Below are positions 24,031-62,319 of a stretch of DNA of 64,000 nt, piece after piece (the first letter of the stretch is position 1; each line of letters opens with the position of its first letter). The stretch is from Mesorhizobium sp. SARCC-RB16n (GTDB lineage: Bacteria; Pseudomonadota; Alphaproteobacteria; Rhizobiales; Rhizobiaceae): the NCBI RefSeq assembly GCF_008520305.1, contig NZ_ML703263.1, positions 186,001 to 250,000 of the forward strand. Reading direction: 5' to 3'. The position numbers were made by a program, and so were the translations under genes. The notes under the pieces are model-generated. The model searched no databases and was not told where the DNA came from. It saw only the letters and a program-made list of their open reading frames with translations.

Positions 24031-25662
<1,632 letters not shown>

Positions 25663-41921: not shown

Positions 41922-42776
41922 TCAACGTTCGATACGTCCTCCGGTTGCAACTCTGCCGCTGGCGATGAAATGCGGATTGGCGAAGTCCTCGTCATCGGCC
42001 TGGTTGCGCTTGCCATAGGTCAAGGGCTTTCCGTCCAGCGTGCGCGTCGTGCCGCCGGCGGCGCGCAGCACCGCGTCACCCGCCGCGGTGTCCCATTCCA
42101 TGGTGCGACCGAAGCGCGGATAGACATCCGCCTCGCCATTGGCGAGGAGGCAGAATTTCAGCGACGAACCGACCGAGACGATCTCGGCGGCACCAAGGTC
42201 GCGAATATAGGCTTCGGTTTCCGGTGTGTTGTGCGAGCGGCTGGCAACCACGGCCAGCGGCGTCACGGCCGTTCTCACCGAAATCTGCCGGCGAGAAACG
42301 ATCCGGTAGCCGCCATCGACTTCGAGGGCTTCCGCCCTGCCCGGCAGACCGGAAAAGAAGCGGCCGCTGCATGGCGCGAAGACGACGCCGACTTCCGGCA
42401 CGCCATGGCGGACAAGCGCGATGTTGACGGTGAAGTCGGTGCGCCGGTTGACGAATTCCTTGGTGCCGTCCAGCGGATCAATGAGGAAGAACACCTCACC
42501 AAGTTCGCCCGGCATGACGCCGGCCGCCGCTTCCTCCTCGGCCACGCAGGGAATGTCGGGGAATTCCGTGCGCAGGCCGGCGAGAATGATCTTCTCGCTC
42601 TCGCGGTCCGCCTCGGTCACCGGCGAGGAATCCGATTTGCGGTCGACCGCGCAGCCGGCGTGGAACACACGCATGACCTCGCTTCCGGCGGCCAGGGCCA
42701 GCCGCTCGAAGATTTCAAGCATCGAACTGTCGTCAGATGCCGCCGCCATTGTCATATTGGTCCTCGGCAATGTCAC
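41922..42776 (-). CDS. cysQ: 3'(2'),5'-bisphosphate nucleotidase
   Basis: 284-residue inositol-monophosphatase-fold enzyme dephosphorylating PAP, the by-product of sulfotransferases and PAPS reductase. The metal-binding motifs are [11 protein letters not shown] and [18 protein letters not shown] supplies the upstream Glu. Its first 44 bases overlap the end of the cysNC gene, so it is the third gene of cysD-cysNC-cysQ. Confidence 0.92.
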
Positions 42777-44670
42777 GCTCGTTCAGCCAGTGTTCCAGGG
42801 CATCTACCATCTCTTCAGCCGACTTGCCGAGCGTCTCCAGATGGATCTCCGGTTTCTCCGGTGCTTCGTAAGGAGAATCGACACCGGTGAAATTCTTGAT
42901 CTCGCCATTCAGCGCGCGGGCATAAAGACCCTTCGGATCACGCCTGGCGCATTCCTCGAAAGGCGTATCGACAAACACCTCGATGAACTCGCCATCGGCC
43001 ATCAATTCCCGGGCCATGCGCCGCTCGGCGCTGAACGGCGAAATGAAGGAAACAATGACGATCAGCCCGGCATCGGCCATCAGCTTGGCCACTTCGGCGA
43101 CGCGGCGAATGTTCTCGACACGATCGGCGTCGGTGAATCCGAGGTCGCGGTTGAGCCCGTGACGAACATTGTCGCCGTCCAGGATATAGGTATGGCGGCC
43201 GGTGGCGAACAGCTTCTTCTCGAACAGGTTGGCGATGGTCGACTTACCGGAGCCCGACAGCCCCGTGAACCAGAACACGGCGGGCCGCTGGTTCTTCATG
43301 TCGGCGCGCACGCGCTTGCCGACATCGAGCGACTGCCAATGGATGTTTTCGGCGCGGCGCAGCGAGTGCACGATCATGCCGGCGCCAACCGTGGCGTTGC
43401 TGATGCGATCGATCAGGATAAAGGCGCCAGTGGTACGGTTCTCGCCAAACGGATCGAAGGCGATCGGCGCCCGCGTTGAAATGTTGCAGATACCGACTTC
43501 GTTCATTTCAAGCGACTTGGCCGCCTCATGGGCAAAATCGTTGACATTGATGCGATATTTCAAGTCGGTGACGGTGGCGCTGGTCTGATCGGTCTCCGTG
43601 CGCAGGATATAAGACCGGCCCGGCAGCAGCGCATGCTCGTCGAACCAGACGATGTTGGCGGCGAACTGGTCGGCGACCTGTGGCCGTGCGGCCGGCGAAA
43701 CCAGCATGTTGCCCCTGGAAACCTCGACCTCGTCGTCAAGGACGAGCGTTATGGCCTGGCCGGCCACCGCTTGTTTGAGATCGCCGCCATAGGCGACGAT
43801 GCGTTTGACATGCGAGGACTTGCCCGATTTTGCGACGACGACCTCGTCGCCTTGCGCAACGGTACCGGACGCGATGGTGCCGGCGAAGCCGCGAAAATCG
43901 AGATTGGGGCGATTGACGTACTGAACCGGAAAGCGGAACGGCAGTTCGACAGTAGTCTCTTCGACCGAAACGGTCTCGAGGTGCTCGATCAACGTCGGGC
44001 CGGAATACCAATGCGTGTTTTCGGAGCGGGTGCTGACGTTGTCGCCGTAGCGGGCCGACATCGGAATCGGCGTGATGGTCTGGAAACCGAGATCGCGCGA
44101 GAACTGCCGGTAGTCCTCGACGATCCTGTCGAAGACCGCCTGGTCGAAATCTACAAGATCGATCTTGTTGACCGCCAGCACGATGTGGCGGATGCCGAGC
44201 AGCGAGGCGATGATCGAATGCCGCCGGGTCTGGCGCAGCACACCCTGCCGGGCATCGATCAGCACGATCGCCAGATCGGCGGTCGAGGCACCGGTCGCCA
44301 TGTTGCGTGTATATTGTTCGTGGCCGGGCGTGTCGGCGACGATGAACTTGCGCTTCGGCGTGGCGAAGAAACGGTAGGCGACGTCGATGGTGATGCCCTG
44401 CTCGCGCTCGGCCTCGAGGCCGTCAACGAGCAGCGCGAAGTCGATGTCGTCGCCTGTCGTGCCGTGCTTGCGCGAATCGCGTTCGAGCGCGGCGAGTTGG
44501 TCCTCGAAAATCTGCTTGGTGTCGGACAGCAGGCGTCCGATCAACGTCGACTTGCCATCATCCACCGAACCGCAGGTGAGGAAGCGCAGCAGCGACTTCT
44601 TCTCCTGCGCGGCCAGATAATCGCGGACGCCGTCCGTGGGAGCGAGGCTCTTTGCCATGATGTGGCGCAT
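42733..44670 (-). CDS. cysN: Sulfate adenylyltransferase large subunit fused to APS kinase
   Basis: 645 residues. The N-terminal GTPase half has P-loop GSVDDGKST at 34-42, [12 protein letters not shown] and NKIDL, as in CysN. The C-terminal half is an APS kinase (CysC) with P-loop GLSGSGKST at about 469-477 and [21 protein letters not shown]. Together with CysD it makes APS from sulfate, and the CysC part makes PAPS. The fused layout is that of rhizobial CysN/C and NodQ. Begins 2 bases after cysD. Confidence 0.95.
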
Positions 44671-44672
44671 GG

Positions 44673-45599
44673 TCAGAAATACCCCTCGCGCTTCTTCTTT
44701 TCCATCGAACCGGCTTCATCGCGGTCGATCAGGCGACCCTGCCGTTCGGATGTGCGTGCCGTCAGCATCTCGCCAACAATGGCTTCGAGTGTGTCGGCGT
44801 CGGATTCGATGGCGCCGGTCAGCGGATAGCAGCCAAGCGTGCGGAACCGCACCAACCGGTCCTCCACGACCTCGCCGGGGAGCAGCTTCATGCGATCATC
44901 GTCCTTGAGGATCAACATGCCATCGCGTTCGACAACCGGCCGCTGCTTGGCGAAATAGAGCGGTACAATCGGGATGTTTTCCTGCAGAATGTACTGCCAG
45001 ATGTCGAGTTCGGTCCAGTTCGACAAGGGGAAGACGCGGATCGATTCTCCCTGAGCGACACGTGTGTTGAAAATCTTCCACATTTCGGGCCGCTGGTTCT
45101 TCGGATCCCACACATGCTGGGCATTGCGGAAAGAGAAGATGCGCTCCTTGGCGCGCGACTTTTCCTCGTCGCGACGGGCGCCGCCAAAGGCCGCATCGAA
45201 GCCATATTTGTCGAGCGCCTGGCGCAACGCCACGGTCTTCATCACATGGGTGTGGGTGTTCGAACCGTGATCGAACGGATTGATGTTGTCGCGCACGCCG
45301 TCTTCGTTGACGTGAACCAGAAGGTCGAACCCCAGCTTCTGCGCCATCTGATCGCGAAATGCGATCATCTCGCGGAATTTCCAGGTGGTGTCGACGTGAA
45401 GAAAGGGGAATGGTGGCTTGGCCGGATAAAACGCCTTCATCGCCAGATGCATCAGCACCGACGAGTCCTTGCCGACGGAATAGAGCATGACCGGCTTGGC
45501 GAAGGCTGCCGCGACCTCGCGGAATATGTGGATGGACTCGGCTTCAAGCCGCTGCAGATGCGTAAGCGCTGGTATCATGGACCGTGAGTGTTCTCTCAT
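44673..45599 (-). CDS. cysD: Sulfate adenylyltransferase small subunit
   Basis: 308 residues if started at ATG 45599; ATG 45578 ([18 protein letters not shown]) is an equally reasonable start giving 301. ATP-pyrophosphatase fold: [22 protein letters not shown] carries the SGGKDS-type loop, and the [11 protein letters not shown] and [12 protein letters not shown] blocks are typical. It activates sulfate to APS with CysN. First gene of the PAPS operon, beside glycan genes rather than assimilatory cysH/cysI. Confidence 0.93.
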
Positions 45600-46029
45600 G
45601 CCTTGCAACAGAAATCCTGCGTCATCGAGCCCTTTGCGCCCGGTTCAAGCTTCGCTTCTGGACAAAGTGTTTCGTGCGGGCGTTCTAGCAGATCGCCGCG
45701 GCGCAGAACAATGCAAGACGAGCCCGGCAGCGGTCTGTTCGAGAATGAATTTTCCACGCCTGTGGCAAAACTCGGAAATTTCTGCTTGAAGGGCCGCCAG
45801 CCGGGAAAAGGCAGGAAAAATATTGCCTGTGGGAGCGATGCAGCAGGGCTACTGGGCCCGACTAGGGGATTTCGGCGGCAATCGATCCGGGCGCACTATC
45901 GAAATAGCGGCCCAGCCGCTATACGCTTTTCGAGAGTGGGCAAGTGCGTGATGGAGCATGGGCAGTTTCGAGGCGAGCACATTCGACGACGTGCCGCATA
46001 AAATTTCTCTGGAATAGCAGGTCCGAAAA
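45600..46029. other. 430-base intergenic region, divergent promoters
   Basis: Lies between cysD (-) and a polymerase-like gene (+). An open frame of 137 codons on the plus strand has no coding character. A perfect 8-bp hairpin, ATAGCGGC/GCCGCTAT with a 3-base loop, lies at 45904-45922, followed by TTTT. No recognisable riboswitch or tRNA was seen. Confidence 0.5.
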
Positions 46030-47382
46030 TTGAACCGGCTTTCATCCATAAGGCAGCAATTCACGCCTTCGCGGATCAATATCTACTTCTCCATTCTCTG
46101 CTTCTTTTCACCCCCGGTCCTGGGATCGGTAGTCAGCTTCGTGTTCAATGGCGGCGGCCTGTGGTCCGTCCTGTTGATCGCCTTGAAGAGAAGACGCTTC
46201 AATGTCGACCGCGCGATGATGGCGCTGACGATCGCGATCTATGCCTATTGCGCAAGCAATGTCATGGCGTCTCTCGTCAACCACGCGATCGTCAAGGACG
46301 CCCGGCATCTTATCCCGCTGATCACCTTTCTGTTTTTTCCCATCTCCTATTCGACCTGGAGCATTTCGCAAAAGACAACGCTCGTCCGCATCATTGTGTT
46401 GGCCAGCATGGCGGCCTGTTTTGGCGCGCTGCTGCTGGCGGTCTACCAACAGTATCGGCTTGGTATGCGCGCCGAGGGCGGGGCCGGGAATGCGATCGTG
46501 TTCGCTGAGGTCCTCTGCCTTGCGGTGGTGACCTGCGTGGCCGCTGCCCTGTCCGGCATAGAGAAATACAGGATCGCCCTCATCTGCGCTGCACTCGGCG
46601 GAACGATCGCCATCATCTACTCCGGTACGCGCATTGTCTGGCTGGCACTGCTGATTGCCGGTGTCGCCGTTCTGCTGATCAACCAGCAGAAGTTGAGAGG
46701 TAGAAATGCCATCCGCGTGCTTTTGCTGCTGGCCGCGATCGCGGCCATGATCGCGGTTTTCGGGTTCCAGACGATAGCGGGGCGTGTCGAATTTCTGCAC
46801 TCCGACTGGGATGCGCTGGCGGCTCATGGTGACCACACGACAGCTTTGGGATCGCGCGTCGCCCTTTGGGATATCGGCCTGAAGGCATTTCGTGAGATGC
46901 CATTGTTCGGACATGGAGTGGGTGCCACCCATGCTTTGATCAAGCAGGGCTTTCAGGAACAGTTCGGGATGGATGAAGGTTTCAATCATTTCCACAACGG
47001 CTTCCTGACCGCCTTGGTGCAAGCGGGAATCCTGGGTGCGGTGACGCTGGCGGCGATCTTTGTCGTTGCCGCCAGCAATGCCGCTCGGGTCCTTCGCGAC
47101 AGCGCCGATCCGATCGAGCGGTTCGGCGCTACCATGATTGTCGCCGTCGTGATCACCTATCTGACCGCTGGAATGACGGGCATCCTGATCGGCCATGACA
47201 TTCTGGACTCGGTCTTTATGGTCTTCCTGGTGTCGGGAACATATCTTGCCAGTGGGCGCCAGGCTGCGTTGGTGGAAGGGCAAGTCCTTCCACCAGGGGT
47301 GGCAGTCCAGGCGATGTCACCAGCGAACGGCCAAGTCGTTCCATCCGTGGAAGGCCTGGCATCTCCGCCAGCCGCCCAATAA
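46030..47382 (+). CDS. O-antigen ligase/polymerase-like membrane protein (second)
   Basis: 450 residues, about ten transmembrane segments, with a Wzy_C-type periplasmic loop: LGSRVALWDIGLKAFREMPLFGHGVGATHALI and FNHFHNGFLTALVQAG, whose His pair is typical of O-antigen ligase-family proteins. The start is probably TTG 46030. A Pro/Val-rich soluble tail of about 45 residues ends the protein. The role is polymerisation or ligation of lipid-linked glycan; compare the relative at 40605-41867. Confidence 0.78.
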   Translation: MNRLSSIRQQFTPSRINIYFSILCFFSPPVLGSVVSFVFNGGGLWSVLLIALKRRRFNVDRAMMALTIAIYAYCASNVMASLVNHAIVKDARHLIPLITFLFFPISYSTWSISQKTTLVRIIVLASMAACFGALLLAVYQQYRLGMRAEGGAGNAIVFAEVLCLAVVTCVAAALSGIEKYRIALICAALGGTIAIIYSGTRIVWLALLIAGVAVLLINQQKLRGRNAIRVLLLLAAIAAMIAVFGFQTIAGRVEFLHSDWDALAAHGDHTTALGSRVALWDIGLKAFREMPLFGHGVGATHALIKQGFQEQFGMDEGFNHFHNGFLTALVQAGILGAVTLAAIFVVAASNAARVLRDSADPIERFGATMIVAVVITYLTAGMTGILIGHDILDSVFMVFLVSGTYLASGRQAALVEGQVLPPGVAVQAMSPANGQVVPSVEGLASPPAAQ

Positions 47383-47399
47383 CCGGTCCGGGCAAGACA

Positions 47400-48347
47400 A
47401 TGAAAGTCCTGGTTACCGGCGCGACGGGCTTCATCGGCCGCCAGGTGGTCCATCGGCTTCGTGAGGCCGGTGTCGAACTTCGCCTCGCCTCCCGCCAGCC
47501 GGAGAGACTTGATGCGGGGTCAGACGCCGTGCCGATGCCGGAGTTCGATGCACCGGCCGCTGCTTTCCTGGCGCTGACCAGGGATGTTACGGATATCGTC
47601 CATTGCGCGGGTCTGAACAATGACCAGGGCAATGCCACCGAAGCCGATTTTCGGGCAGCCAACGCACAATTGAGCGCACGTCTGGCGCATGCCGCCGCCA
47701 CGCAGGCAAGCGGACGGTTCATCCATCTTTCCTCGATCCGGGCCGTGATCGGCGCGCGTGCCAGCGCAAAGATCGACGAAGACACGCTCCCCGCCCCCCA
47801 AGACGCCTACGGGCGCTCGAAACGCGAAGCAGAAATTGCCGTATCGGGCGCCTATGCCTCGCATGGCCGTACCGACGCCGCCATATTGCGGCTGCCTCCG
47901 GTCTACGGGATTGGCATGAAAGGAAACCTGGCGACGCTGATGCGGCTCGCCGACACGGCGCTGCCGATGCCGACAGGCGCACTGACGGCAAACCGCTCGC
48001 TGCTGTCATCGCAATCCGCGGCACGGGCGGTGTGGCATCTGCTTTGCCATTCGCAGCCGCTTCGTCCGGTCTATACCGCCAGCGACGTGCCGCCGGTTTC
48101 CGTCGCTGCCATCATCGGTGCCTTTCGCCACGGTTTCGGGAGACCGACGCGCCTGATGGCAATGCCGGCCGGACCGATGCGGGCGGCGGCCATACTGCTT
48201 GGCAAGCGGACGTTCTGGGACAGCCTGACCGCGACACAAATATGCGACCCTTCGCTCCTTGCCTCGGAAGGCTGGGCGCCGGAAACCAACACGCTGGAGC
48301 GGCTGACCGAGATAGCGCGGCTCCGAAAGCTCCGGCTTCCTGTTTGA
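47400..48347 (+). CDS. NAD(P)-dependent sugar epimerase/4-reductase (WreQ-like)
   Basis: 315-residue extended short-chain dehydrogenase. The dinucleotide motif VTGATGFIGRQVVHRL is at residues 4-19, and the catalytic YxxxK is DAYGRSKREAE. RSLLSSQSAARA near residue 200 is typical. With the small sugar transferase and the membrane 4,6-dehydratase next to it, the set matches the Rhizobium UDP-QuiNAc pathway (4,6-dehydratase WreV, 4-reductase WreQ, transferase WreU), so a 4-keto reductase role is favoured. This is inference; a 4-epimerase is possible. Confidence 0.8.
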   Translation: MKVLVTGATGFIGRQVVHRLREAGVELRLASRQPERLDAGSDAVPMPEFDAPAAAFLALTRDVTDIVHCAGLNNDQGNATEADFRAANAQLSARLAHAAATQASGRFIHLSSIRAVIGARASAKIDEDTLPAPQDAYGRSKREAEIAVSGAYASHGRTDAAILRLPPVYGIGMKGNLATLMRLADTALPMPTGALTANRSLLSSQSAARAVWHLLCHSQPLRPVYTASDVPPVSVAAIIGAFRHGFGRPTRLMAMPAGPMRAAAILLGKRTFWDSLTATQICDPSLLASEGWAPETNTLERLTEIARLRKLRLPV

Positions 48348-48390
48348 CCCTAGTTCAAAGACTGGTTTCTGCTTCTGGGGCCCGGCGTGC

Positions 48391-48930
48391 TCAGCCGCGG
48401 TAGAGTGTCCCAAACAGGATCCGAAGGTCGAGCCAGAACGACGCGGTCCTGAGATAGGTGGCATCGGTTTCGGCTAGAAGTTGAGGTTTCGACATGTCGA
48501 TGCCCCTGATCTGCGCCAAGCCTGTCATTCCGGGGAGAGCCTGCAAAACCCCCAGCCGCCTGCGGCATTCGATCAGTTCCGTCTGGGTCGGCAGGCAGGG
48601 GCGCGGCCCGACCAGGCTCATTTCGCCGCGCAGGACATTCCAGAGCTGCGGCAACTCGTCGAGCTTGAATTTCCGCAAGCTCTTTCCGACCGATGTAACG
48701 GCGCTCGCGGGGGTTTCGTGCGAGGGCAAGGATGGCGTTCCCTGGTACATCGTCCTTAATTTGTGGCAGCGAAAAAGCGCACCTTCGCGGCCAATTCGCG
48801 TTTGGGAAAAAATCACCGGACCAGGCGACGATGCGCGGACGGCAAGAATGGCAAGCAATAGAACGGGAGAGGTTGCCACCAGCAGAACAGCCGCACCGGC
48901 GAGATCGAAGATTTTCTTGGCTGTCGTCAT
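48391..48930 (-). CDS. Small phosphoglycosyl transferase (WreU/PglC-like)
   Basis: 179 residues. A monotopic bacterial sugar transferase attaching the first sugar-1-phosphate to undecaprenyl phosphate. The N-terminal re-entrant hydrophobic segment is KIFDLAGAAVLLVATSPVLLL. Next is FRCHKLRTM. The catalytic Asp-Glu dyad lies in FKLDELPQLWNVLRGEMSLVGPRP, and PGMTGLAQIRG follows. The size corresponds to the minimal PglC-type form, not to the larger ExoY/WbaP forms. Converges with the reductase gene 43 bases away. Confidence 0.88.
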   Translation of the reverse strand: MTTAKKIFDLAGAAVLLVATSPVLLLAILAVRASSPGPVIFSQTRIGREGALFRCHKLRTMYQGTPSLPSHETPASAVTSVGKSLRKFKLDELPQLWNVLRGEMSLVGPRPCLPTQTELIECRRRLGVLQALPGMTGLAQIRGIDMSKPQLLAETDATYLRTASFWLDLRILFGTLYRG

Positions 48931-49042
48931 GAGTGGCCGATAGGGCTCCCTGCCAGGGCTTCGCGCGACAACTGCGAGCGAAGCCCGTCATCCGGTCGAC
49001 GTAACATGAGGTCGCCTCCTGACCAAGCACACCACGCGGTGT

Positions 49043-50056
49043 TCAGATGCGGCCCAGGATAAAGGCGAGATAGAGCCCAAGGGTCCCTGCAAGGGTCTGT
49101 CGATAGACGCCGCTTTTGCGCAGCGCGCCCAGGCGTTGGAAAAGGCCACCTCGCCGACCGTTCGCGAACAAATCGAGGCATGCCAACGCATCCTTCGTCA
49201 GGAGATCGCGATTGACGGCGAGACCGGCAAGGTTGAGATCGGTCCAGTCTGCAAACTGCCCCTTGAACAGGCGACCGAGCCGGGAGATCCGTGCCTGCCA
49301 CGATGCATTGGCGCCGACCAGATTTGCCGCATGCTGGCGATAGCGTACCAATGACCGCGAATCGTAGCGGACGACGCCGCCGGCGCCAGTGACAATCAGA
49401 TAGGCCCACCAATCGTGGCTGACGAAGCCGGTCCGGACGGAGGCCCTGGCCAACAGATCGCGTGCAGCGTGGTTGAGCAGGATGGTGTTGCCGCCGGCAA
49501 TGCTCTGCACGAGCGCATTGCGGAACGACGGCGGACGGCTAAACAGCGGCGAATGGCCGACCAGGCTTCCGGTTTCGGTCATGGTCGCGGTGCGCGAGCA
49601 GAACATCAGCGGGACCGCCGCGTCAAATGCCTGCATCCAGCCAAGGGCGCTTTCAAGCCTGTCGGGCTCCCAGACATCGTCCTGATCGCTGAAGGCGTAA
49701 AAATCCGCGTCGATGCGCGGGTCGAGGATCATCGACCGGAAATTGGCGGCAAAGCCTTGCCGCGGCCCCTCCACCAAATTGACCCGACCTTTTGCCCAGC
49801 GGGACTTCCAGGCTTCGATGATGGCAACCGTGCCATCGACGGAACCATCGTCGGATATCCAAAGGTCGATCACAGGATGGGACTGCGCGAGCAGCGACTG
49901 CATTTGCTCATCGATGAAGGCGGCGCCGTCCTTCGTGGCCATCAGGACCGCAATGCGCAGATCTGTCTTACCCACTGATGTCAAACGCCTTGCCGCGCGA
50001 GGTTTTCCGAGCCACGAACACACACTTTTCCTGGATTGCTCATCTCTTGTTTTCAC
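49043..50056 (-). CDS. Family 2 glycosyltransferase
   Basis: 337 residues as drawn. The GT-A core begins at about residue 33 (RIAVLMATKDGAAFIDEQMQSLLAQ), continuing with DLWISDDGSVDGT and the metal motif FSDQDDVW. A GTG at 49976 would drop a polar N-terminus and start with VGKTDLRIA, so the true start may be there. The C-terminus has one hydrophobic stretch (LAGTLGLYLAFILG). It probably adds a rhamnose or hexose to the lipid-linked chain. Donor unknown. Confidence 0.8.
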   Translation of the reverse strand: MKTRDEQSRKSVCSWLGKPRAARRLTSVGKTDLRIAVLMATKDGAAFIDEQMQSLLAQSHPVIDLWISDDGSVDGTVAIIEAWKSRWAKGRVNLVEGPRQGFAANFRSMILDPRIDADFYAFSDQDDVWEPDRLESALGWMQAFDAAVPLMFCSRTATMTETGSLVGHSPLFSRPPSFRNALVQSIAGGNTILLNHAARDLLARASVRTGFVSHDWWAYLIVTGAGGVVRYDSRSLVRYRQHAANLVGANASWQARISRLGRLFKGQFADWTDLNLAGLAVNRDLLTKDALACLDLFANGRRGGLFQRLGALRKSGVYRQTLAGTLGLYLAFILGRI

Positions 50057-50101
50057 GCAATTCCGGACGGAAAACCGCTGTGCACTTTTCCTGGAATTGC
50101 T

Positions 50102-53297: not shown

Positions 53298-53305
53298 GTT
53301 TTTCC

Positions 53306-54046
53306 ATGGTTTCTATCAAGCTGGACAATGTCAGCCTTGTTTACAAGCTGCACGACAAGCTGACCCTGTCCGCGCCGGACCGGCGCGTGGGTGGGCCTGG
53401 CGGTAGAATCGAGGGCTCGGGCAGAAAACAGTTCGTGCAGGCGCTCGATGGTGTCAGCTTCGAACTCAGGGCGGGCGACCGGTTAGGCCTTGTCGGCCCG
53501 AACGGAGCGGGCAAAACCACGCTTCTCAAGGTGCTCTATGGAATCTACGAACCCTCTGGGGGAAGCGTAGCGATCGAAGGCAAGGTCGATGCTCTCTTCA
53601 ACATCAACATAGGCTTTCGACGGGAGGCTACCGGGCGCCGGAATATCGTGCTGCGCGGGTTGATCAGCGGATGGACGGAAACCGAGATCGAAGAGAAGAT
53701 GGAAGACATTATCGCCTTCAGTGAGCTCGGAGATTTCATCGACCTGCCGTTCAAGGCCTACAGCCAGGGTATGGCCGCAAGACTGGCCTTTTCGGCGGCG
53801 ACCGCGCTTGATCCCGAGATTCTCTTGATGGATGAGTGGATCGGCGCCGGCGACGCCTCTTTCCAGGAGAAGGCCAAAAGGCGCATGGACGAACTGGCGG
53901 AAAAGGCCGGCATCATCGTATTGGCCAGCCACAGCGAGGCACTCATACAAAGTGTGTGTACGAAGAAACTGACGCTCAAGAGCGGTCGGATAGAATCGCT
54001 GACGACGGAGCCGGTCAAGCGTGCCGGAAAGGTAGCTAAGCTTTAG
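53306..54046 (+). CDS. Polysaccharide ABC exporter ATPase (Wzt type)
   Basis: 246 residues. Walker A GPNGAGKTTLLKVLYGIY; the Wzt/TagH-style sequence GFRREATGRRNIVLRGLISG; signature YSQGMAARLAFSAATALDPEILLMDEWIGAGD. A family insertion of about 25 residues (SAPDRRVGGPGGRIEGSGRK) precedes the Walker region. It lacks the C-terminal carbohydrate-binding domain of the longer Wzt proteins, so chain-terminus recognition must lie elsewhere. ATG 53306 is used; the frame is open further but overlaps the permease gene. Confidence 0.9.
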   Translation: MVSIKLDNVSLVYKLHDKLTLSAPDRRVGGPGGRIEGSGRKQFVQALDGVSFELRAGDRLGLVGPNGAGKTTLLKVLYGIYEPSGGSVAIEGKVDALFNINIGFRREATGRRNIVLRGLISGWTETEIEEKMEDIIAFSELGDFIDLPFKAYSQGMAARLAFSAATALDPEILLMDEWIGAGDASFQEKAKRRMDELAEKAGIIVLASHSEALIQSVCTKKLTLKSGRIESLTTEPVKRAGKVAKL

Positions 54047-54276
54047 ATTTCCCAGTATCTTCCGGAAAATGACGCGGCAAAAACGATCTTATTGACGCGC
54101 GCCATTCCGCCTTGGCCGATGCACAGAATCCTTTACAAGATTTTCGCGTTCCGGGGCGGATGAGAAGATATTCGGCTAGCATAGGCAGTCTAAAGAACAT
54201 ATCGAATGGACGATGCGCCGGGTGCCGTTTGGGGAAGGCATTGTTGGAGCAGCGTTCGATGATGCGGAGATAGTTC

Positions 54277-57200
54277 ATGGTCCCCTTGGCCCCACCGAAG
54301 CGTGTTTGCATCCTCGTTTTGGGCATGCACCGCTCTGGGACGAGTGCAATCACGCGCGTATTGAGTCTTTTGGGAGCCGCCCTACCTCACCACCTGATCA
54401 ACGCTACGCCGACTAATGAGGCGGGTCACTGGGAGCCTGCGCGGCTGGTGCAGATCAATGACAGCATGCTGACGGAGTTCTCGAGTCGTTGGGATGATTG
54501 GCGCGCCCTCGACCCTGCAACTCTAGACGCAGCGAAGCTCGAGCATTACAAAAGCGCTATCAAAGAAGCGATTGCAGCCGAGTTCGGAGATGCGTCGCTA
54601 TTCGTGATCAAGGATCCGCGAATCTGCCGATTCGCACCATTTTATGAATCGATCCTGGCCGAGATGGGTGTGGCCACCCGATTTGTGCTCATTCATCGTA
54701 ATCCCCTCTCGGTGCTGGCATCTCTCGATCGCCGCGATCAGATCTGCGCGAATTATGGGGCGCTGGTTTGGCTGCGGCACGTATTGGACGCCGAAACTTC
54801 GACGCGCAGCAAGGACCGGGTGTTGGTCAGCTACGAGCAACTGATGGATGACTGGTCGTCGGTGGTAAACGAGATCGCGACCGCACTCGGCATCAACTGG
54901 CCCGTTGGCGATCACGCCTCAGAATTGATCGATCAGCACTTGCGCCGGAGTCTTCAGCATCACGCCGCTTTGCCCGCAGATTTCATCCCCAAGTCGCTTG
55001 TCGGCGGTGCGGTCAGGGAGACCTATCAGTCGCTCCTTGCTCTCCCCCATCCAGAGTCGGTCGAGTCGGCGCTTGTAGTGCTTGATCGCGCCAAAGCGGC
55101 ACTGGATGCTGGCGCACCTGTGTTCGCCGATGCACTTTTCGAGGAGATGGCAGTACGCCAGCAGCGCGAGACGCTCAACCGCGAGCATTTGGAGCGGCTT
55201 GCGGCAAAACGCCAAGACGAGATGGAAGCGTTGGCCAGAAAAATCGAGGGTAACGACGCCCGTATTGCTTCGCTCGAGGAATTGTGCCGCCAATCGGACC
55301 TGAACCGGGCCGCCGTAATGGCAACACGTGAAGCTGGACTTTTGAGGGAACTTCAAGAACTCAGAGGCACGGTGACCGAACTTGAAACCCGAATCAACCA
55401 GGAGCGCGAATTTCTCCAGCGGCTAACAGCTGACAACGACAAGGTGAACGCGCAGATCACGAGGGAGAACGTCGAGCTTCAAGATCAGGTCAGGGCGTTA
55501 TCGCAGGCACGTGATATAGCCCGCTTCGAAGAGCAACAGGTACGTGACATCCTCCAAGCTATTTACGTTAGCACATCATGGCGCATGACCCGTCCAATAC
55601 GCGCGCTTAAGAAGAAAACCGCTGAGTTCCGCTCAGTGGCAACCGGCGCGCTTCATCTCATCCGAGAAAGACGATTGACTCCCGCGACTATCGCGAGGGG
55701 CGTCAGGCGACTGCCGAGGTTGATCAGCGAAGGTAAGCTCTCCAACCCGACCAGCTTCTCCGAACTGACCGAGACGCTCGAGGCCCAGTCTGTTTCCCGT
55801 ATCCAGAGTGCGTTCGACCGGGAATTCTACCTTCGAAACAACCCCGACATTGCAGCGTCAGGCGTAGATGCGCTCTCGCATTTTCTTGCCCATGGTTGGA
55901 AAGAGCACCGCGATCCTTCAGCCGACTTCTCAGTCTCATATTACCTTCAACGCTATCCCGATATAGCGCGGGCAGGGATCAATCCGTTCATCCATTACGT
56001 CTTGCATGGCCAAGCGGAAAAGCGGACGGCTCTGTCCTACAAACGGCGCTTGGGGCGAAGCGGAATTCGACCTAAGGTCACAGCCATAATTCCCAACTAC
56101 AACCATGCTCGTTTTCTTGAGCAGCGGTTGGAATCGATACTCTCACAGACTTACGAAAACATAGACATCTTCATTCTCGACGACTGTTCACAGGACAAAA
56201 GTCGCGAAATCATCCAGCGATACTGCGACCTCTACCCCGGTCGCGTGCGATCGCTTTTCAATGTGCAGAATTCTGGCAACGTCTTTCGCCAATGGCGCAA
56301 GGGCATCGAACAAAGCGAAGGCGACATCATTTGGATCTGCGAAAGCGATGACTTCTGTGAACCCGACTTTGTCGAGCGTTTGATTCCACATCTTCGTGAT
56401 CGCAGCGTTAACTTGGCCTTCGGTCGCATTCAGTTCTGCGATCAAAACGGAAGGCCGCGGGCCGGCCTTGATCAGTACCGCGAGGGTGCCGAGGCTGGCA
56501 TCTGGAATGAGTCGATGGTCCGGCCGGCATCCGAGTGGTTTACCCACGGGTTCGGCGTCAATAATTTGATAGCCAATGTTGGCGGATGCCTCTGGCGTCG
56601 TCAGATCTTGCCGGCCGCAGTCTGGGCGGAAGCAGAGTCATTCTCGGTGCTCGGCGACTGGTTTCTGTACTGTCATTTGGCCGGCGGTGGGAACGTCGCC
56701 TATGAACCTAACTCAGTAGCGTATTTTCGACAGCACGGGCGGAACACCTCGGTCAGTGCATTTAAGAGCGCACACTACTATACAGAGCATCATCGACTGA
56801 TGCTGCTACTCCGCAAGACATGGGATGTGCCCGACGAGACCGTCGAGCGCTTCGTGTCAAAGGTGGAGTTTCAATACAAGCACTTCGAACTTGAGCAAAA
56901 GCTCGGCCCATTGAGCTTGCATGTCGACAGGCACGCGCTCCTGAAGGTCAAGCGCCAGCGCCCACACATCATGTTGGCATTTCTAGGCTTTCATACCGGT
57001 GGCGGGGAGCTATTCCCAATCAATCTCGCGAATGAATTGCACGCCCAAGGCCATCTTGTTTCCATGCTCGCGCTGGACATGAGCAACATCAATCAGCACA
57101 TGATGGAGTCACTCAATCCCGCCATCGCAGTTTATGATGCGGATCAGGTAGTGGAGGCCGGTGCAGATCGCTTCGTGGCAGAGGCAGGAGTTTCGCTGAT

Positions 57201-58116
57201 CCACTCACATATGGCGCTTCTCGAAATATTCTTCTTTGAGCATATGAAATTTACGGCCAGCATTCCTTACGTCGTGAGCCTGCATGGATCATATGAGAGC
57301 GCGGATCTGAGCGTCGACTTTCTGAAACGCTTCGCCAAGGACGTGACGCATTGGGTGTACACGGCGGATCGTAACCTGGAGCCCTTCAGAGCGGTGTCCA
57401 TTCCTGAAACCAAGCTGACTAAACTTGGCAACGGCATGCCTCGTGACGACATGCCTTTTCCGCAGACTCGCAGGGAAATGGGGATAGCCGACGATGCCGT
57501 CGTATTTACCCTCGTAGCGAGGGGAATACTGCGTAAAGGCTGGAGGGCGTCGATTTCTGCTTTCATCAAACTTCGGGACCGTCATCCCGAGCGGCAGCTA
57601 CACCTGCTACTGTGCGGCGATGGCGAGCAAGCCGCCAATCACCAACGCACCTACGGCTCCGAACCAGGTATCACCTTTCTCGGCTACCAGTCGAGAATTC
57701 CTGGACTTTATCGGATCAGTGATGTGGCTCTCGTCCCAAGCCGCTTCGGAGGCGAGTCGTTCCCTCTGTGCATAATCCAGGCCATGCAGACCGGCACTCC
57801 GGTCATATCCACGCGGGTGGGAGAGATAGAACACATGGTGGCTCCTCATGGACATCCTCCATGCGGCCTCATCATAGATCCAGTGCGCGATACCGACCAT
57901 TTCATCCAATTGTTGGAAACAGCGATGGAAGACATGATGTCGGATACCTTGCGCCAGAAGTACGCAAAAAGCGCAAAAAAACTTGGCGAACGCTATAGCA
58001 TATCAAGCGTCGCTGAGGATTACATGCGCATCTACAACGACTCTATACGCTCACTGGATCTCAACTCTAACGAAGCTGAAGACGGTCTCCAATCCGAGCG
58101 GACAGCGTATCGATAG
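54277..58116 (+). CDS. Multi-domain glycan enzyme: sulfotransferase-like, coiled coil, GT2 and GT4
   Basis: 1279 residues, cytoplasmic. About 1-230: PAPS-dependent sulfotransferase fold with the 5'-phosphosulfate loop GMHRSGTSAITRVL (16-29) and RFVLIHRNPLSVLASL (135-150). About 290-425: coiled coil. Linker STSWRMTRPIR at 432-442. About 511-583: two copies of an FYLRNNPDIA / YYLQRYPDIA repeat each ending in an H-F/Y-x2-HG motif. About 600-830: GT2 (TAIIPNYNHARFLEQRLESI; DDCS; ESDDF at 689-693). About 895-1250: GT4 with GGGELFPINLA and, at 1160-1168, E-x7-Q instead of the usual E-x7-E. Lower GC than flanks. It probably extends and caps a surface glycan; sulfonation is inferred. Confidence 0.82.
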   Translation: MVPLAPPKRVCILVLGMHRSGTSAITRVLSLLGAALPHHLINATPTNEAGHWEPARLVQINDSMLTEFSSRWDDWRALDPATLDAAKLEHYKSAIKEAIAAEFGDASLFVIKDPRICRFAPFYESILAEMGVATRFVLIHRNPLSVLASLDRRDQICANYGALVWLRHVLDAETSTRSKDRVLVSYEQLMDDWSSVVNEIATALGINWPVGDHASELIDQHLRRSLQHHAALPADFIPKSLVGGAVRETYQSLLALPHPESVESALVVLDRAKAALDAGAPVFADALFEEMAVRQQRETLNREHLERLAAKRQDEMEALARKIEGNDARIASLEELCRQSDLNRAAVMATREAGLLRELQELRGTVTELETRINQEREFLQRLTADNDKVNAQITRENVELQDQVRALSQARDIARFEEQQVRDILQAIYVSTSWRMTRPIRALKKKTAEFRSVATGALHLIRERRLTPATIARGVRRLPRLISEGKLSNPTSFSELTETLEAQSVSRIQSAFDREFYLRNNPDIAASGVDALSHFLAHGWKEHRDPSADFSVSYYLQRYPDIARAGINPFIHYVLHGQAEKRTALSYKRRLGRSGIRPKVTAIIPNYNHARFLEQRLESILSQTYENIDIFILDDCSQDKSREIIQRYCDLYPGRVRSLFNVQNSGNVFRQWRKGIEQSEGDIIWICESDDFCEPDFVERLIPHLRDRSVNLAFGRIQFCDQNGRPRAGLDQYREGAEAGIWNESMVRPASEWFTHGFGVNNLIANVGGCLWRRQILPAAVWAEAESFSVLGDWFLYCHLAGGGNVAYEPNSVAYFRQHGRNTSVSAFKSAHYYTEHHRLMLLLRKTWDVPDETVERFVSKVEFQYKHFELEQKLGPLSLHVDRHALLKVKRQRPHIMLAFLGFHTGGGELFPINLANELHAQGHLVSMLALDMSNINQHMMESLNPAIAVYDADQVVEAGADRFVAEAGVSLIHSHMALLEIFFFEHMKFTASIPYVVSLHGSYESADLSVDFLKRFAKDVTHWVYTADRNLEPFRAVSIPETKLTKLGNGMPRDDMPFPQTRREMGIADDAVVFTLVARGILRKGWRASISAFIKLRDRHPERQLHLLLCGDGEQAANHQRTYGSEPGITFLGYQSRIPGLYRISDVALVPSRFGGESFPLCIIQAMQTGTPVISTRVGEIEHMVAPHGHPPCGLIIDPVRDTDHFIQLLETAMEDMMSDTLRQKYAKSAKKLGERYSISSVAEDYMRIYNDSIRSLDLNSNEAEDGLQSERTAYR

Positions 58117-58186
58117 TATTTGATCCAGAGAACCTGCGGGACGAAACATAGCCGAGCTAAACTAGACTGTTAGACAGCCGCGTCCA

Positions 58187-59746
58187 TCATTCTTTCAACC
58201 TGACTAGTGCAGCACCTCGATATAAGGTGATGAAGTCGATTGTTGGGAAGAGCGACCGCTGGAAAGCGTCTGGCTCTTCGGCCAAATTCAAAACTCGTTG
58301 CCCAACAACGAGCCGGGCAAGCCTTTGAAGGTAGGCCGCCGCGGACTCCGTTGCCCCTCCATGGTAATTGGGAACGTATTTGCCATAACTCGTGTCTAAG
58401 TCCTCGATTATGTAAAAGCCGCCGGGCGTGACGCTGCCGATTAGCTTCTGAAACGTCAATATCTGGTGGGTCCAGACGTGGGAACCGTCATCGACAATGA
58501 CATCGAACGGCCCTTTGGCTCCGAGCAAATCGAGATCCTGAACCTTTGACTGATCGAGAATTTCAATTTGTATCCTGTCTTGCTCATGTGCTTTGGCGCG
58601 AGGGTCAATATCGACACCGACGATCTTGCCATTGCGAAAGTAGTCCTTCCATGTCCGCACAGAGCCGCCGTTAAGGACGCCGATTTCGAGCAGCTTGATC
58701 GGCTTATCACGCATCGGGCCGAGGAACCGGTCATAGAAATTGAGGAAATTGTTTTGGTTTGAACCCTTGTCGGTGCCGTAGCGATTGCCAATCGTATCGA
58801 GCGTTTCGTGCATAAATTGGCTCCTCCTGAAACTATCGAGATACTCCTCTATCCGAAGATCCGACGGATCGAAAGGCCTCCAATTCCGGTCATCGTTGAA
58901 ATTATCAAGATCGAGAAAGGTGGCAAGAGACATCCCATTAGTAAATTCTGATATACGAGCGTTAGCGTCGATATGGATATTGTTGAAATGACTACGATAC
59001 TCTGGCGATCGGAAGAACCGCGCCCTGTCATAGTTCGGGAATGGCACATCGCGAAAGCGGGTAAGCAAGTGTTGTTTATCTTCGACACCATCCGTGACTG
59101 ATAACATATAGGTTTCTGGCCTGGACAGGCTGTCATTGATGCGCTCGGCCGGTTTCGACATCTCATTCCAGAGCATCGGAAAACCGATAGCGACGCAAAA
59201 GTCCTGACCGAGAGATCCATCTGACCAAAGTTTCGAGTTGTACGGACGCACCTTTACGCGTTCGGCACCGAGGGCGTTCACGAAGGGCCTCAGTATTTCA
59301 TAGAACTCCAGCTGGTATTGAGCGGCTTCAATGGGGCCAACGAGGTAATCCTTGACGCTCTCGGCATATACACTTTCGAGGAGGTGATCGAAACGTCGCA
59401 AATAAAACAGTGCCGTCACCTCGTCGGCCATCGCCCACAAGCCATCAAAGAACGACGGCGCGCTTATCCGCGATAATTCCTCTCCAGAGATCAGTAGCGT
59501 CTCGCAATTGGAATCCAGAGTGAAGACCCGACCGAAGTTCGCCTCAAACGATTTGGTGGCGTCATAGTCGACTGCGACGATGCTGTGCTGGGGGCCGAAC
59601 ATCCGATCCTCGGGATCGCGGTAATCCGGATAGTGGATCGAATGAGCCGTCAGAACATCTCGATTAGAAGCGAGGGTGGCTTGAAGATAAGAGCTTCCGG
59701 TCTTGTGAATTCCACAATGCAGGATGATTGTCTTGTAGCGCGGCAT
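58187..59746 (-). CDS. Sulfotransferase-like/SAM methyltransferase fusion
   Basis: 519 residues. The N-terminal part (about 1-310) is a P-loop sulfotransferase-like domain with HCGIHKTGSSYLQATL at 10-25 and FYLRRFDHLLESVYAESVKDY at 114-134. The C-terminal part (about 315-519) is a class I methyltransferase: LEIGVLNGGSVRTWKDYF at 353-370, VDIDP at 378-382, and DVIVDDGSH at 415-423, resembling MycE-type sugar O-methyltransferases. The two activities in one chain suggest sulfonation and methylation of the same glycan, which is inference. Transcribed opposite to the 1279-residue gene. Confidence 0.82.
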   Translation of the reverse strand: MPRYKTIILHCGIHKTGSSYLQATLASNRDVLTAHSIHYPDYRDPEDRMFGPQHSIVAVDYDATKSFEANFGRVFTLDSNCETLLISGEELSRISAPSFFDGLWAMADEVTALFYLRRFDHLLESVYAESVKDYLVGPIEAAQYQLEFYEILRPFVNALGAERVKVRPYNSKLWSDGSLGQDFCVAIGFPMLWNEMSKPAERINDSLSRPETYMLSVTDGVEDKQHLLTRFRDVPFPNYDRARFFRSPEYRSHFNNIHIDANARISEFTNGMSLATFLDLDNFNDDRNWRPFDPSDLRIEEYLDSFRRSQFMHETLDTIGNRYGTDKGSNQNNFLNFYDRFLGPMRDKPIKLLEIGVLNGGSVRTWKDYFRNGKIVGVDIDPRAKAHEQDRIQIEILDQSKVQDLDLLGAKGPFDVIVDDGSHVWTHQILTFQKLIGSVTPGGFYIIEDLDTSYGKYVPNYHGGATESAAAYLQRLARLVVGQRVLNLAEEPDAFQRSLFPTIDFITLYRGAALVRLKE

Positions 59747-60020
59747 TTGGCGATCACCACCTTATGACATCCACTCGTCTGAACTCGCCCTATTCAGGTC
59801 AAGCCATCGACGCAGTCAACATCAAAAACCTATAAGGCTGCCATGGACAGCAGCCTAAACAAGCCCGCTGTCAAGCCTTGATGACCTAAACTTGGATCGG
59901 TCAGCGGCGATGAAATTCGCGCATTTCCTAGGTCGAAACATGCCCACACAGCTTTAATGGCATGGGCGGTTGATCATCCTGTTCAGTCTCATAGCCTGCA
60001 AGGCGACATTGTAGGGCTCT

Positions 60021-60935
60021 TCATCTCGCCAGTGTTACAGCCTTTCGAATTCCAACATCGAACGGAGTAGTCGGTTTCCAACCGAGCATCTTTCCTGCGA
60101 AGGAAATGTCCAGACTGGCGATATCCACATCTGTGCTTCTAGCGCCAACATATTCACGCTCGAAGACGTGACCGGTCAAACCTTCGATCGCCTGCACTAT
60201 ATCTAACACGGAACGTGTCTCGCCACTTCCGATATTTATGATTGCGCGAGGCGCACCAGGAAGCGACAGAGCCGCCTCTACAGCGTCGATCACATCGTCG
60301 ATATAGAGATAGTCACGCATAGCTTTGCCATCGCCAAATATGCGGATGGGCAGGCCCTTGCGCCAGTGGTCCAACAGCATAGGGATAAGACCTTGACCTT
60401 TGCGGAAGATCTGCCCCGGTCCGTAGGGATTCGCCAATCTCAAGATCACATAGTCCAAGCCGTCGACGTGGCTGTACATCTGGATGTATTTTTCCACGAT
60501 GAGCTTCGTCAGGCCATGCGAGTTGATCGGGTTAGGCATTGAGGTTTCCGGCGTCGGAACCGACGCGTCCGGTCCATAGATTGTCCCCCCAGATGACAGG
60601 AATATATAGCGCTTCACTCCCGCCCGCAGGCACGTATGTAGGAATTTGACATGTGGAACTACGTTTTCCTCGATATCTGCAATGGTGTGGTCGTTCCTCA
60701 TCCCGGGGCTTGATGTGGAAATGAGTTGCACGACTGTCTCGACTCCTTCCAAGGAAGACGCCATGGCTATCGGCTGTCGAAAGTCGCCCTCGACGAACTC
60801 GGCACGCTGTCCCAATGAACCCAAGAACTCGGGATCAAATCTCCTGGAGACGGCACGGACAGGCACACCGTTCTGAGCCAGCCGCCTTAGCAGGTGCCGA
60901 CCAATGAAGCCGTTTGAGCCGTAAATTCCAATCAT
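60021..60935 (-). CDS. NDP-sugar epimerase/dehydratase
   Basis: 304-residue extended SDR. NAD motif IYGSNGFIGRHLLRRL is at 4-19. The active-site Tyr region reads NPINSHGLTKLIVEKY, where the usual YxxxK Tyr is His (HGLTK), with Ser/Thr upstream in FLSSGGTIYG. Substrate-side FGDGKAMRDYLYIDDVIDAV is typical of UDP-glucose 4-epimerase-like and dTDP-sugar enzymes. The His in place of Tyr needs checking, as it may lower or change activity. Followed by a 99-base gap to the methyltransferase gene. Confidence 0.82.
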   Translation of the reverse strand: MIGIYGSNGFIGRHLLRRLAQNGVPVRAVSRRFDPEFLGSLGQRAEFVEGDFRQPIAMASSLEGVETVVQLISTSSPGMRNDHTIADIEENVVPHVKFLHTCLRAGVKRYIFLSSGGTIYGPDASVPTPETSMPNPINSHGLTKLIVEKYIQMYSHVDGLDYVILRLANPYGPGQIFRKGQGLIPMLLDHWRKGLPIRIFGDGKAMRDYLYIDDVIDAVEAALSLPGAPRAIINIGSGETRSVLDIVQAIEGLTGHVFEREYVGARSTDVDIASLDISFAGKMLGWKPTTPFDVGIRKAVTLAR

Positions 60936-61034
60936 ACCAATTCGACCTAATATGTATCATCGACGCCAAGCATACCGTGCGCGACAGGACGGCTTTAAGC
61001 GAGAAGCACCGCTGATGGAAAGGAACAACTCAGC

Positions 61035-62315
61035 CTATTTCCCTGAGCTTAGCCACCATTCCAGCACCCGAGCCGGACTTAAATTCCGCAGCACCCACCT
61101 AAGATTCATCGAAAGCGTTCGAAGCGGTGCGGTGATCCGCCAACTCGTTGAGTCTTTGAATTCTTGAACTAAGACTTCATGTTCTGTCAGTTTCGACTCA
61201 AGGGCATTTTTCACCGTGTGCGCTAGGGACAGTTCTCCTTGCAAGACTTTGATCTCCGCGATTTTCTCGATGGCTTCGGCCTTCTTCTGAGCGATAGCCA
61301 GTTCATCGGCTCGCATCTGTTCGCGCGCTACTGCTATCTTATGGGAAAGCGCCTCTATATGGGCCGCCTGATGTTTTATCAGTTCTCGATTGGTCCCAAT
61401 TTCCTCTTCCATAGTCGTTGCGCGCAGCGACCAAACGCTCTCTGTTTCATCGGCTGGCCTGCTCACTGTGCCGTCCAAGGGCATGATGCTTCCTTCGACG
61501 AGCGCAGTCAGGCCCGCCATACGGCGCGCGCCCAACACATTTTCCTGAATTGGCCGCTTAGCGACGATGCAAAGCGAGTTCAAGAATTCGACGGAATGAA
61601 CCGAAGCGAGAGAAGCTTCATCGAATGTAACTTTGTGCCTGTCCGCAAAGGTGGTCAGGACATCGACTCGAAGACGATTCAGCCCCCAATGCTCGTGGTT
61701 GATCACATCAAGCAGGCGTTTAAAGAACGACATCGAGGAAAGCGGATCGTAGAGACCGCCCCCGAACCTCTGCCAGTAACTGCAATGCAAATCCTCCGCT
61801 ATATACAGTCCACCATCGGTGGAATGCGGGAAATAGCGAGCGAAAGAACGCACTATATCGGACGACAAATGTGATCCGTCATCGATTATGATATCGAACT
61901 TCGGCGACCTGGCAAGGATGTCCCGTTCCACCTCATCGGTATTGGCATCACCTATAACGATCGAAATTTTCTCATCGTCGAACACCAGATTTGCGCAGGC
62001 CGGATTCACATCGCAGCCAATGATAAGTTCCGCGTTGGGAAAATATTTTCGCCAGATTTCCAGAGAGCCGCCGTTCTGGATACCAATTTCCAAAATCCGA
62101 ACAGGCTTGTCTCGGTATTCCGAAAGAATACGGTCGTATGTGCTGAGATAGATCGACCACTTGTCCGATACTTTGCCGCTATGAGCCGTGTATAGATCAA
62201 GAAGAGATCCGGATTGTTCTTGAAACCGCGCGGCCTTCCGCGCCTTCGGTGCAATCTTGCCAACGGCGAACCGCGTCGCACCCCGGATGCTTTGCAATGG
62301 AGGGCGCTTGTTCAT
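61035..62315 (-). CDS. SAM methyltransferase with C-terminal coiled coil
   Basis: 426 residues from ATG 62315 (MNKRPPLQSI); a longer open frame upstream is a shadow of rfbD. Residues 35-250 form a class I methyltransferase very like that of the 519-residue fusion: YDRILSEYRDKPVRILEIGIQNGGS (around 60-84), CDVNP at 101-105, DIIIDDGSH at 141-149. A coiled coil (about 310-387) and the terminal motif STSWRITAPLR (389-399) follow. Four bases after rfbD. It probably methylates a sugar of the surface glycan. Confidence 0.83.
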   Translation of the reverse strand: MNKRPPLQSIRGATRFAVGKIAPKARKAARFQEQSGSLLDLYTAHSGKVSDKWSIYLSTYDRILSEYRDKPVRILEIGIQNGGSLEIWRKYFPNAELIIGCDVNPACANLVFDDEKISIVIGDANTDEVERDILARSPKFDIIIDDGSHLSSDIVRSFARYFPHSTDGGLYIAEDLHCSYWQRFGGGLYDPLSSMSFFKRLLDVINHEHWGLNRLRVDVLTTFADRHKVTFDEASLASVHSVEFLNSLCIVAKRPIQENVLGARRMAGLTALVEGSIMPLDGTVSRPADETESVWSLRATTMEEEIGTNRELIKHQAAHIEALSHKIAVAREQMRADELAIAQKKAEAIEKIAEIKVLQGELSLAHTVKNALESKLTEHEVLVQEFKDSTSWRITAPLRTLSMNLRWVLRNLSPARVLEWWLSSGK

Positions 62316-62319
62316 GCGA

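Follow-up and report, generated by a model that had tools for sequence, protein, structure and literature searches.

The 64,000-nucleotide stretch of Mesorhizobium sp. SARCC-RB16n analysed here (contig NZ_ML703263.1, positions 186,001 to 250,000; hereafter the window, whose numbering is used throughout) carries, in open reading frames (ORFs) at 41922..63965, what is likely a locus for a sulfated and methylated O-polysaccharide. Our best explanation of the locus as a whole, advanced tentatively and rated a little short of an even chance, is that an O-polysaccharide exported by an ATP-binding cassette (ABC) transporter is modified by sulfotransferase (ST) and methyltransferase (MT) heads acting as exchangeable chain-end modules. 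Under this explanation, the locus would make a polysaccharide containing 6-deoxy sugars (rmlBD), and ST and MT domains on multidomain proteins would add sulfate and O-methyl groups in the cytoplasm while the chain grows. The sulfate donor 3′-phosphoadenosine-5′-phosphosulfate (PAPS) would come from core CysD and CysNC, the by-product 3′-phosphoadenosine-5′-phosphate (PAP) would be cleared by CysQ, and these enzymes would also serve cysteine synthesis. The protein P0001 would unite a modifying ST head, a helical spacer and chain-building glycosyltransferases (GTs) in one polypeptide; P0003 would be an MT-headed version of the same idea without a GT, and P0002 would pair an ST with an MT. With such heads swapped between strains as modules, one lineage could have a sulfated chain end where another has a methylated one. 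The newer part of this account is its modularity, that is, swappable ST and MT heads on giant GT proteins. At the level of sequence we see the domains, the motifs, one head swap and a conserved frame; activity, substrate, capping and length control we infer.

In P0001, Sulfotransfer_3 spans aa 12-209, GT2 aa 603-734 and GT4/GT1 aa 1063-1235, and the order of head, spacer and GT is that of coiled-coil terminators. The ST passed the PF13469 cut-off, and its profile match in the PDB was weak (5x2b, 0.0058). GMHRSGTS and K(D/E)PR were present in all 48 P0001-type ST homologues and RNPx5S in 41 of them; moreover, R141 and S149 of P0001 were invariant among 23 aligned sequences. For the ST of P0002, a family profile of 26 sequences matched the solved sulfotransferase 3rnl at 7.7e-8, with H10, G12, K15, Q22 and E89 invariant and R117 nearly so; its N-terminal half alone gave no Pfam sulfotransferase match. 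The motif names and spacing applied to the window STs are what we take to be those of the 5′-phosphosulfate-binding (5′-PSB) loop and the 3′-phosphate-binding (3′-PB) Arg/Ser motif. An earlier note on this DNA had proposed a check of PAPS-binding residues by structural comparison; when the check was made on sequence, the expected residues were found to be kept in both STs. Single-sequence phmmer searches of the PDB with either ST domain returned nothing relevant, and the family profiles did better. In a sample of 297 genomes from the family (109 genera), 35 genomes in 24 genera had a P0001-type ST relative. The 3.5-residue periodicity of the P0001 spacer was matched by 5 of 1000 shuffles for aa 345-440 and by 60 of 1000 for aa 285-440. 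In G001, the nearest comparison genome, the homologue (L042:9850-13707) has a spacer 13 residues longer than that of the window (at 55303, P0001 aa 343). Should the spacer act as a ruler, the window strain and G001 could differ in chain length.

Comparisons within the genus drew on 146 Mesorhizobium genomes, with 80 cysD-side flanks (77 of 20 kb, 3 shorter) and, as controls, 20 cysQ-side and 20 distant stretches. When the P0001 homologue of L001 (the same locus as G092/L145) was examined, its spacer-GT2-GT4 body was 73.6% identical to P0001 over aa 261-1278. The MT-and-spacer end of this homologue, formed by its first 409 aa, was 53.7% identical to P0003 aa 37-401. Post-spacer blocks of P0001 and this homologue were identical at 665 of 800 positions (∼83%), and pre-spacer blocks were mostly 17-41% identical. 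In this alignment an ST head has been replaced by an MT head on one body in a related strain. Among the scanned loci, seven large multidomain proteins ("giants") of 993-1527 aa were ST-headed (window, L042 from G001, L085, L103, L118, L141 and L151) and eight of 1161-1657 aa were MT-headed (L091, L092, L108, L121, L124, L132, L136 and L145); none in these loci carried both an N-terminal ST and an N-terminal MT. The STs of L118 and L141 were assigned with a purpose-built profile, not with Pfam, and the giant count omits a 913-aa L110 frame whose MTs are internal. ST heads were seen on five different GT bodies, namely GT2-GT2, WbsX, WbsX-RgpF, GT2-GT2-GT4 and RgpF-WsaF.

The C-terminal MT of P0002 matched the solved demethylmacrocin O-methyltransferase 8ia9 at 2.8e-25 and was homologous across its catalytic domain to sugar O-methyltransferases of the MycE/TylE type. 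It was also 36% identical to the MT of P0003 over 153 aa. A full-length relative of P0002 was found in just 1 of the 146 genus genomes (G092), and a relative of 70% identity was carried by a Mesorhizobium metagenome-assembled genome. In G001, the MT of P0002 is kept as a separate gene (87%), beside a separate ST 19% identical to that of the window. A transposase-like gene, so named by eye, adjoins the split ST and MT that replace fused P0002 there (L042:13913-15211 and 15261-16915). G001 has in common 31% of the window's sampled 31-mers; the locus is not a product of chance, because those parts of 24-64 kb that match G001 align at 85-96% identity. The alignment has its largest gap at 58816-60043, the ST half of P0002.

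The earlier note had described a sulfated and methylated glycan with its own local PAPS supply. An ABC-exported glycan with ST and MT domains is still the best reading, whereas a dedicated cysDNCQ supply was rejected. Matches to cysNC (E ≤ 1e-100) were found in 144 of the 146 genus genomes, with one match in 124 and two or three in 20, some of which are perhaps split genes; this count was made by hand, eight candidates per genome generally being scored. The cysD gene had a median identity of 95% and was found in all 80 cysD-side flanks. Because cysD is present in every flank and cysNC is mostly single-copy, the operon represents the core sulfurylase. The note had also asked for cysD/nodPQ copies to be counted in the genome; the count given here is from relatives, and G001 has one CysD. 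In that genome the PF01507 proteins were just the locus CysD and a CysH adjoining a sulfite-reductase-like gene. Its sole ATP sulfurylase is thus at this locus and must therefore feed cysteine synthesis too. No second, non-assimilatory cysDN(C) copy tied to ST loci was found in G001 or the genus genomes. The note had taken the lack of an adjoining reductase as a sign of a role in sulfonation. In G001, too, cysH lies apart from cysD, and a missing neighbouring reductase is thus ordinary for the genus member examined (G001).

Both the GTPase and the APS-kinase P-loops are there in window CysNC (APS, adenosine-5′-phosphosulfate). The CysH of G001 has CC...CxxC cysteines, which we take to be a mark of APS reductases. 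It scored over the NCBIfam cut-offs for phosphoadenylyl-sulfate reductase (NF002537, 270.8 bits) and cysH (TIGR00434, 181) and under that for APS reductase (TIGR02055, 180.4 vs 235.3). If CysH uses APS, sulfation rather than assimilation may be the main business of the APS-kinase half and CysQ, and this much of the note's argument keeps some force; the name of the best over-cut-off model, phosphoadenylyl-sulfate reductase, speaks against such use. According to passages of a review (PMC6192434), rhizobial CysH prefers APS, Mesorhizobium loti has sulfated lipopolysaccharide (LPS) with PAPS as donor, and an M. loti nodPQ mutant is without sulfated polysaccharides (Townsend et al. 2006, as reported there). 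A sulfated, nodPQ-dependent polysaccharide of M. loti is thus already published.

STs were scored in 20 of the 80 cysD-side flanks and in none of the 20 cysQ-side or 20 distant stretches. The 20 comprise 15 of P0001 type, two of P0002 type (L115 and L145) and three recognised by Pfam (L080, below cut-off, L096 and L097). Three flanks with motifs and no or weak Pfam support (L077, L126 and L147) were left uncounted, and a scan of the remaining motif candidates gave no further ST, so that 20/80 and 0/40 stand. In all, 55 rows of P0001-type STs, one of them a 37-residue fragment, were found in 53 of the 146 genomes: 38 on the cysNC contig (28 within 25 kb, 10 further away), 13 on other contigs and 4 without a cysNC row. 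It could be that sulfation has nothing to do with the placing of cysDNCQ, which would neighbour the glycan locus simply because both consist of core genes with a fixed site; the case for and against this seems to us evenly balanced. The 20/80 against 0/40 and the 28 of 38 same-contig STs within 25 kb of cysNC argue against it, although these may all stem from one site. On its side are cysD in 80/80 flanks as against ST in 20/80, the single cysNC match in most genomes, and the 20 genomes that supplied all three kinds of stretch, in which STs were found in 3/20 cysD-side flanks and in 0/20 and 0/20 of the controls. The proximity of ST and cysNC may go back to one inherited site and reflect linkage, not functional need.

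Other ST arrangements were also observed. In G096, a gene of the Stf0 family (PF09037; L097:11743-12627) lies at the same cysD-side locus, and therefore other ST types occur at the site. P0001-type STs were located ∼183-201 kb from cysNC, apparently in a second glycan locus, in six genomes (G018, G026, G027, G096, G119 and G136); none of the five such genomes with frames of at least 885 aa has a Wzt_C nearby. Three genomes (G077, G128 and G133) have ST-bearing frames of 1561-1895 aa with no Wzt_C match, and each has a distant P0002-type ST ∼6 kb or less from the P0001-type ST.

The idea that the heads act at the chain end was examined through the C-terminal domain Wzt_C of the exporter ATPase. 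In the fetched flanks, Wzt_C stood beside the head in 5/5 ST-headed giants (window and G001 excluded) and 0/8 MT-headed ones. The prediction of an ST/Wzt_C pairing was written down before further genomes were tested; these were scored only by the match and the length of the open frame, irrespective of where the head lay and of which GT body it had. In this test set, Wzt_C was found within 10 kb of 10/25 ST-bearing genus frames of at least 885 aa outside the flanks and of 0/11 MT-bearing frames of at least 784 aa (Fisher 0.016). With the flanks, the window and G001 included, the genus total was 15/32 ST vs 0/19 MT (Fisher 2.6e-4). MT-bearing frames of ∼1250-1320 aa elsewhere form a further class, outside the test. 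When only heads on the same contig as cysNC and no more than 25 kb from it were taken, a cut chosen afterwards, a count by hand gave Wzt_C in 12/16 ST vs 0/15 MT; the ST misses were the window, G001, G077 and G128.

Several observations weigh against chain-end modules and, with them, against a sulfate cap. The tested loci share descent, and the p-values consequently overstate their independence. The 10/25 is made up of 10/17 frames first tested (two having Wzt_C on another contig and five none) and 0/8 rows added, the latter from seven genomes and lying at another site, often ∼190 kb off, or on other contigs. Because of these eight rows, we lowered our estimates for the best explanation and for the sulfate cap and raised that for decoration along the chain. 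Outside the genus, ST-bearing giants had Wzt_C in 1/11 genomes. A general rule of ST heads with Wzt_C was rejected on this count and on the 0/8 other Mesorhizobium sites. Short ST proteins were paired with Wzt_C in just 2/9 loci, and among rows with neither an ST nor an MT head a long Wzt tail was seen in 5/33. The Wzt proteins of both the window and G001 are without the Wzt_C domain common to published terminated systems: window Wzt, scanned from 53303, gave no PF14524 match at E ≤ 1, and the only PF14524 match of G001 lies ∼163 kb from its P0001 homologue. Membership of the window in the capped systems was rejected for want of Wzt_C. The P0003 spacer (aa 310-400) had no significant heptad periodicity (399/1000 shuffles). 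To these points may be added the structure models and the Aeromonas salmonicida case considered with the last alternative below.

An alternative that we regard as a serious contender, somewhat less than probable, is that STs and MTs decorate sugars along the chain, or the core or initiating sugar, rather than its end, and are joined to polymerases only to act during growth. It is favoured by the absence of Wzt_C from the window Wzt, from 10/11 genomes with ST giants outside the genus and from within 10 kb of 15/25 ST-bearing frames in the genus outside the flanks, as well as by the short ST proteins, which mostly occur with a short Wzt. It is disfavoured by the 12/16 vs 0/15 contrast at cysNC loci and by the swap of ST and MT at one position of one body, as alternative end groups would do. 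Exchangeable chain-end modules are therefore kept as our leading explanation in its tentative form. The stricter idea that sulfate is a chain-terminating cap is offered as a hypothesis, not a result, and we consider it rather unlikely: an ST head on a ruler-and-polymerase protein would end the chain, most Mesorhizobium carriers at the locus would have a Wzt_C that reads the sulfated end, and ST/MT swaps would change the cap. If capping did hold, the window would be a hybrid, with an ST head on an MT-type body and a cap-blind transporter. Finally, inactive ST domains or a non-glycan target seem improbable, even though ST activity is here a prediction from sequence, the AlphaFold models (P0001 aa 1-318 from a single sequence, pLDDT (predicted local distance difference test) 44.7; P0002 from two sequences, 34.9) were uninformative and unusable, and an ST-domain gene occurs in the A. 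salmonicida O-antigen cluster with no sulfate found in that O-antigen (PMC4483657), since PAPS-site positions vary little or not at all among diverged relatives, two STs and PAP removal are found at one glycan locus, and M. loti LPS is reported as sulfated in the part of the review cited above.

As shown in Table 1, the PAPS synthesis and PAP removal genes, two ST-domain proteins, two related MTs, ABC exporter and initiation enzymes listed by the earlier note are all real ORFs where it had placed them. Among the initiation enzymes, the initiating sugar transferase is the ORF at 48391-48930(-) and not the overlapping one at 48350-49030(-), which had no Pfam match. The dehydratase at 50102..52090 is, we presume, WbpM/FlaA1-like. 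The listed rmlB-like ORF covers the C-terminal two thirds of the PF16363 model. The frame is conserved and the cassette variable: a Wzt relative was found in 57/80 cysD-side flanks, and relatives of the P0001 ST in 15/80 (median 44%), of its GT4 part in 2/80 and of the P0002 ST in 1/80. GC content was 0.511-0.566 across 52-62 kb vs 0.590-0.662 in the remaining 2-kb steps, in keeping with an acquired cassette. A repeat search of 52000-63000 gave a single weak pair.

Table 1. Features of the glycan locus and the adjoining cysDNCQ genes; flank counts give the flanks in which a relative was found.
Feature	Position	Strand	Support
cysQ, 3′(2′),5′-bisphosphate nucleotidase (PAP removal), core gene	41922..42776	-	TIGR01331 343.7 bits, over cut-off; 20/20 cysQ-side flanks
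cysNC/nodQ-like, ATP sulfurylase large subunit and APS kinase fusion, core gene	42733..44670	-	NF004035 1070 bits
cysD/nodP-like, ATP sulfurylase small subunit, core gene	44673..45608	-	TIGR02039 527.8 bits; 80/80 flanks
Wzy_C family membrane protein, probable O-antigen ligase or polymerase, frame gene	46030..47382	+	PF04932; 64/80 flanks
Short-chain dehydrogenase/reductase (SDR) epimerase/reductase, possibly for initiating amino sugar (role inferred)	47400..48347	+	PF01370; 66/80 flanks, 65 at ≥60% identity
Initiating polyprenyl-phosphate sugar-phosphate transferase	48391..48930	-	PF02397 175 bits; 67/80 flanks, 66 at ≥60%
GT2 glycosyltransferase	49043..50056	-	PF00535; 45/80 flanks
Polysaccharide biosynthesis nucleoside diphosphate (NDP)-sugar dehydratase	50102..52090	-	PF02719 316 bits; 66/80 flanks, 65 at ≥60%
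Wzm, ABC exporter permease	52398..53297	+	PF01061; 42/80 flanks
Wzt, ABC exporter ATPase, 246 aa, without C-terminal Wzt_C	53306..54046	+	PF00005; start is first ATG past wzm
P0001, 1279 aa: ST head (∼aa 1-300), helical spacer (∼300-440), GT2, GT4	54277..58116	+	PF13469, PF00535, PF00534
P0002: ST (∼aa 1-300) fused to MycE/TylE-like O-methyltransferase (∼303-519)	58187..59746	-	ST profile to 3rnl, MT to 8ia9
NDP-sugar epimerase/dehydratase (SDR)	60021..60935	-	PF01370 152.9 bits
P0003: MT head and spacer, no GT	61035..62315	-	Start corrected from 62501
rmlD, dTDP-4-dehydrorhamnose reductase	62320..63288	-	TIGR01214 310.3 bits; 40/80 flanks
rmlB-like dTDP-glucose 4,6-dehydratase	63213..63965	-	PF16363 178.8 bits, profile 118-331; 42/80 flanks

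Elsewhere in the window, a second Wzy_C family protein (40605-41867) lies on the cysQ side and was found in just 2/20 cysQ-side flanks. Glycogen-type genes (phosphorylase, GlgB-like branching enzyme, starch synthase-like and alpha-amylase family) occupy 20342-33247, and a sugar nucleotidyltransferase (with a ManC-like helix) fused to a GlcNAc 2-epimerase-type protein is located at 5645-7879.

Chain-terminating groups decide how long many bacterial surface glycans become and how they are exported, and the surface glycans of nitrogen-fixing symbionts affect host interaction. If our explanation is true, an ST in the terminator position, exchangeable with an MT, would introduce a charged cap and offer strains a genetically simple way to vary their surface, and the older report of a sulfated M. 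loti polysaccharide would become testable gene by gene.

In passages of PMC11231755, the terminated O-polysaccharides of Klebsiella are described as relying on a terminator with a coiled coil and on a Wzt that has a domain for reading the cap; O7 ORF6 unites terminator, coiled coil and GTs, and the terminating groups named include methyl, methylphosphate and 3-deoxy-D-manno-oct-2-ulosonic acid (Kdo). As these passages present them, Klebsiella pneumoniae O7 ORF6 and O12 WbbB resemble P0001 and its locus in having an N-terminal modifying domain, a spacer, C-terminal GTs and an ABC transporter; Escherichia coli O9a WbdD has the modifying domain and spacer without a GT, the ABC transporter again being common. 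Unlike the O7, O12 and O9a terminators as given there, the window head is an ST, not a methyltransferase-kinase or Kdo transferase, and the window Wzt is without a cap-binding domain. Words starting with sulfat or sulfotransferase are absent from the text of PMC11231755. No description of a sulfotransferase terminator was found in the literature at the level of titles and abstract openings, a search outside which the 2019 terminator census of Mann, Kimber and Whitfield lies. Within the genus, the portions of PMC6192434 consulted make the M. loti nodPQ system similar in its PAPS-dependent sulfated surface polysaccharide; per that review, the nodPQ work established sulfate and the PAPS source, and the likeness drawn here is one at the level of genus. 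The O-chains of M. loti NZP2213 are reported, in the sections of PMC6274867 used, to contain 6-deoxytalose and little 2-O-methyl-6-deoxytalose (wild-type ratio to N-acetylquinovosamine (QuiNAc) ∼33:1); the methylated sugar might represent a methyl end group in that strain. The MT of P0002 is homologous to the macrolide sugar O-methyltransferases MycE and TylE (3ssm, 8ia9); unlike these, it is fused to an ST and lies within a glycan locus. The window STs share the PAPS sulfotransferase superfamily with Stf0 (PF09037), the family to which we take the LpsS-type enzymes of Sinorhizobium to belong. An Stf0-type identity was rejected for both because neither matches PF09037, and the earlier note was right to set them apart from the single sulfotransferases of LpsS type, for each window ST is fused to other domains.

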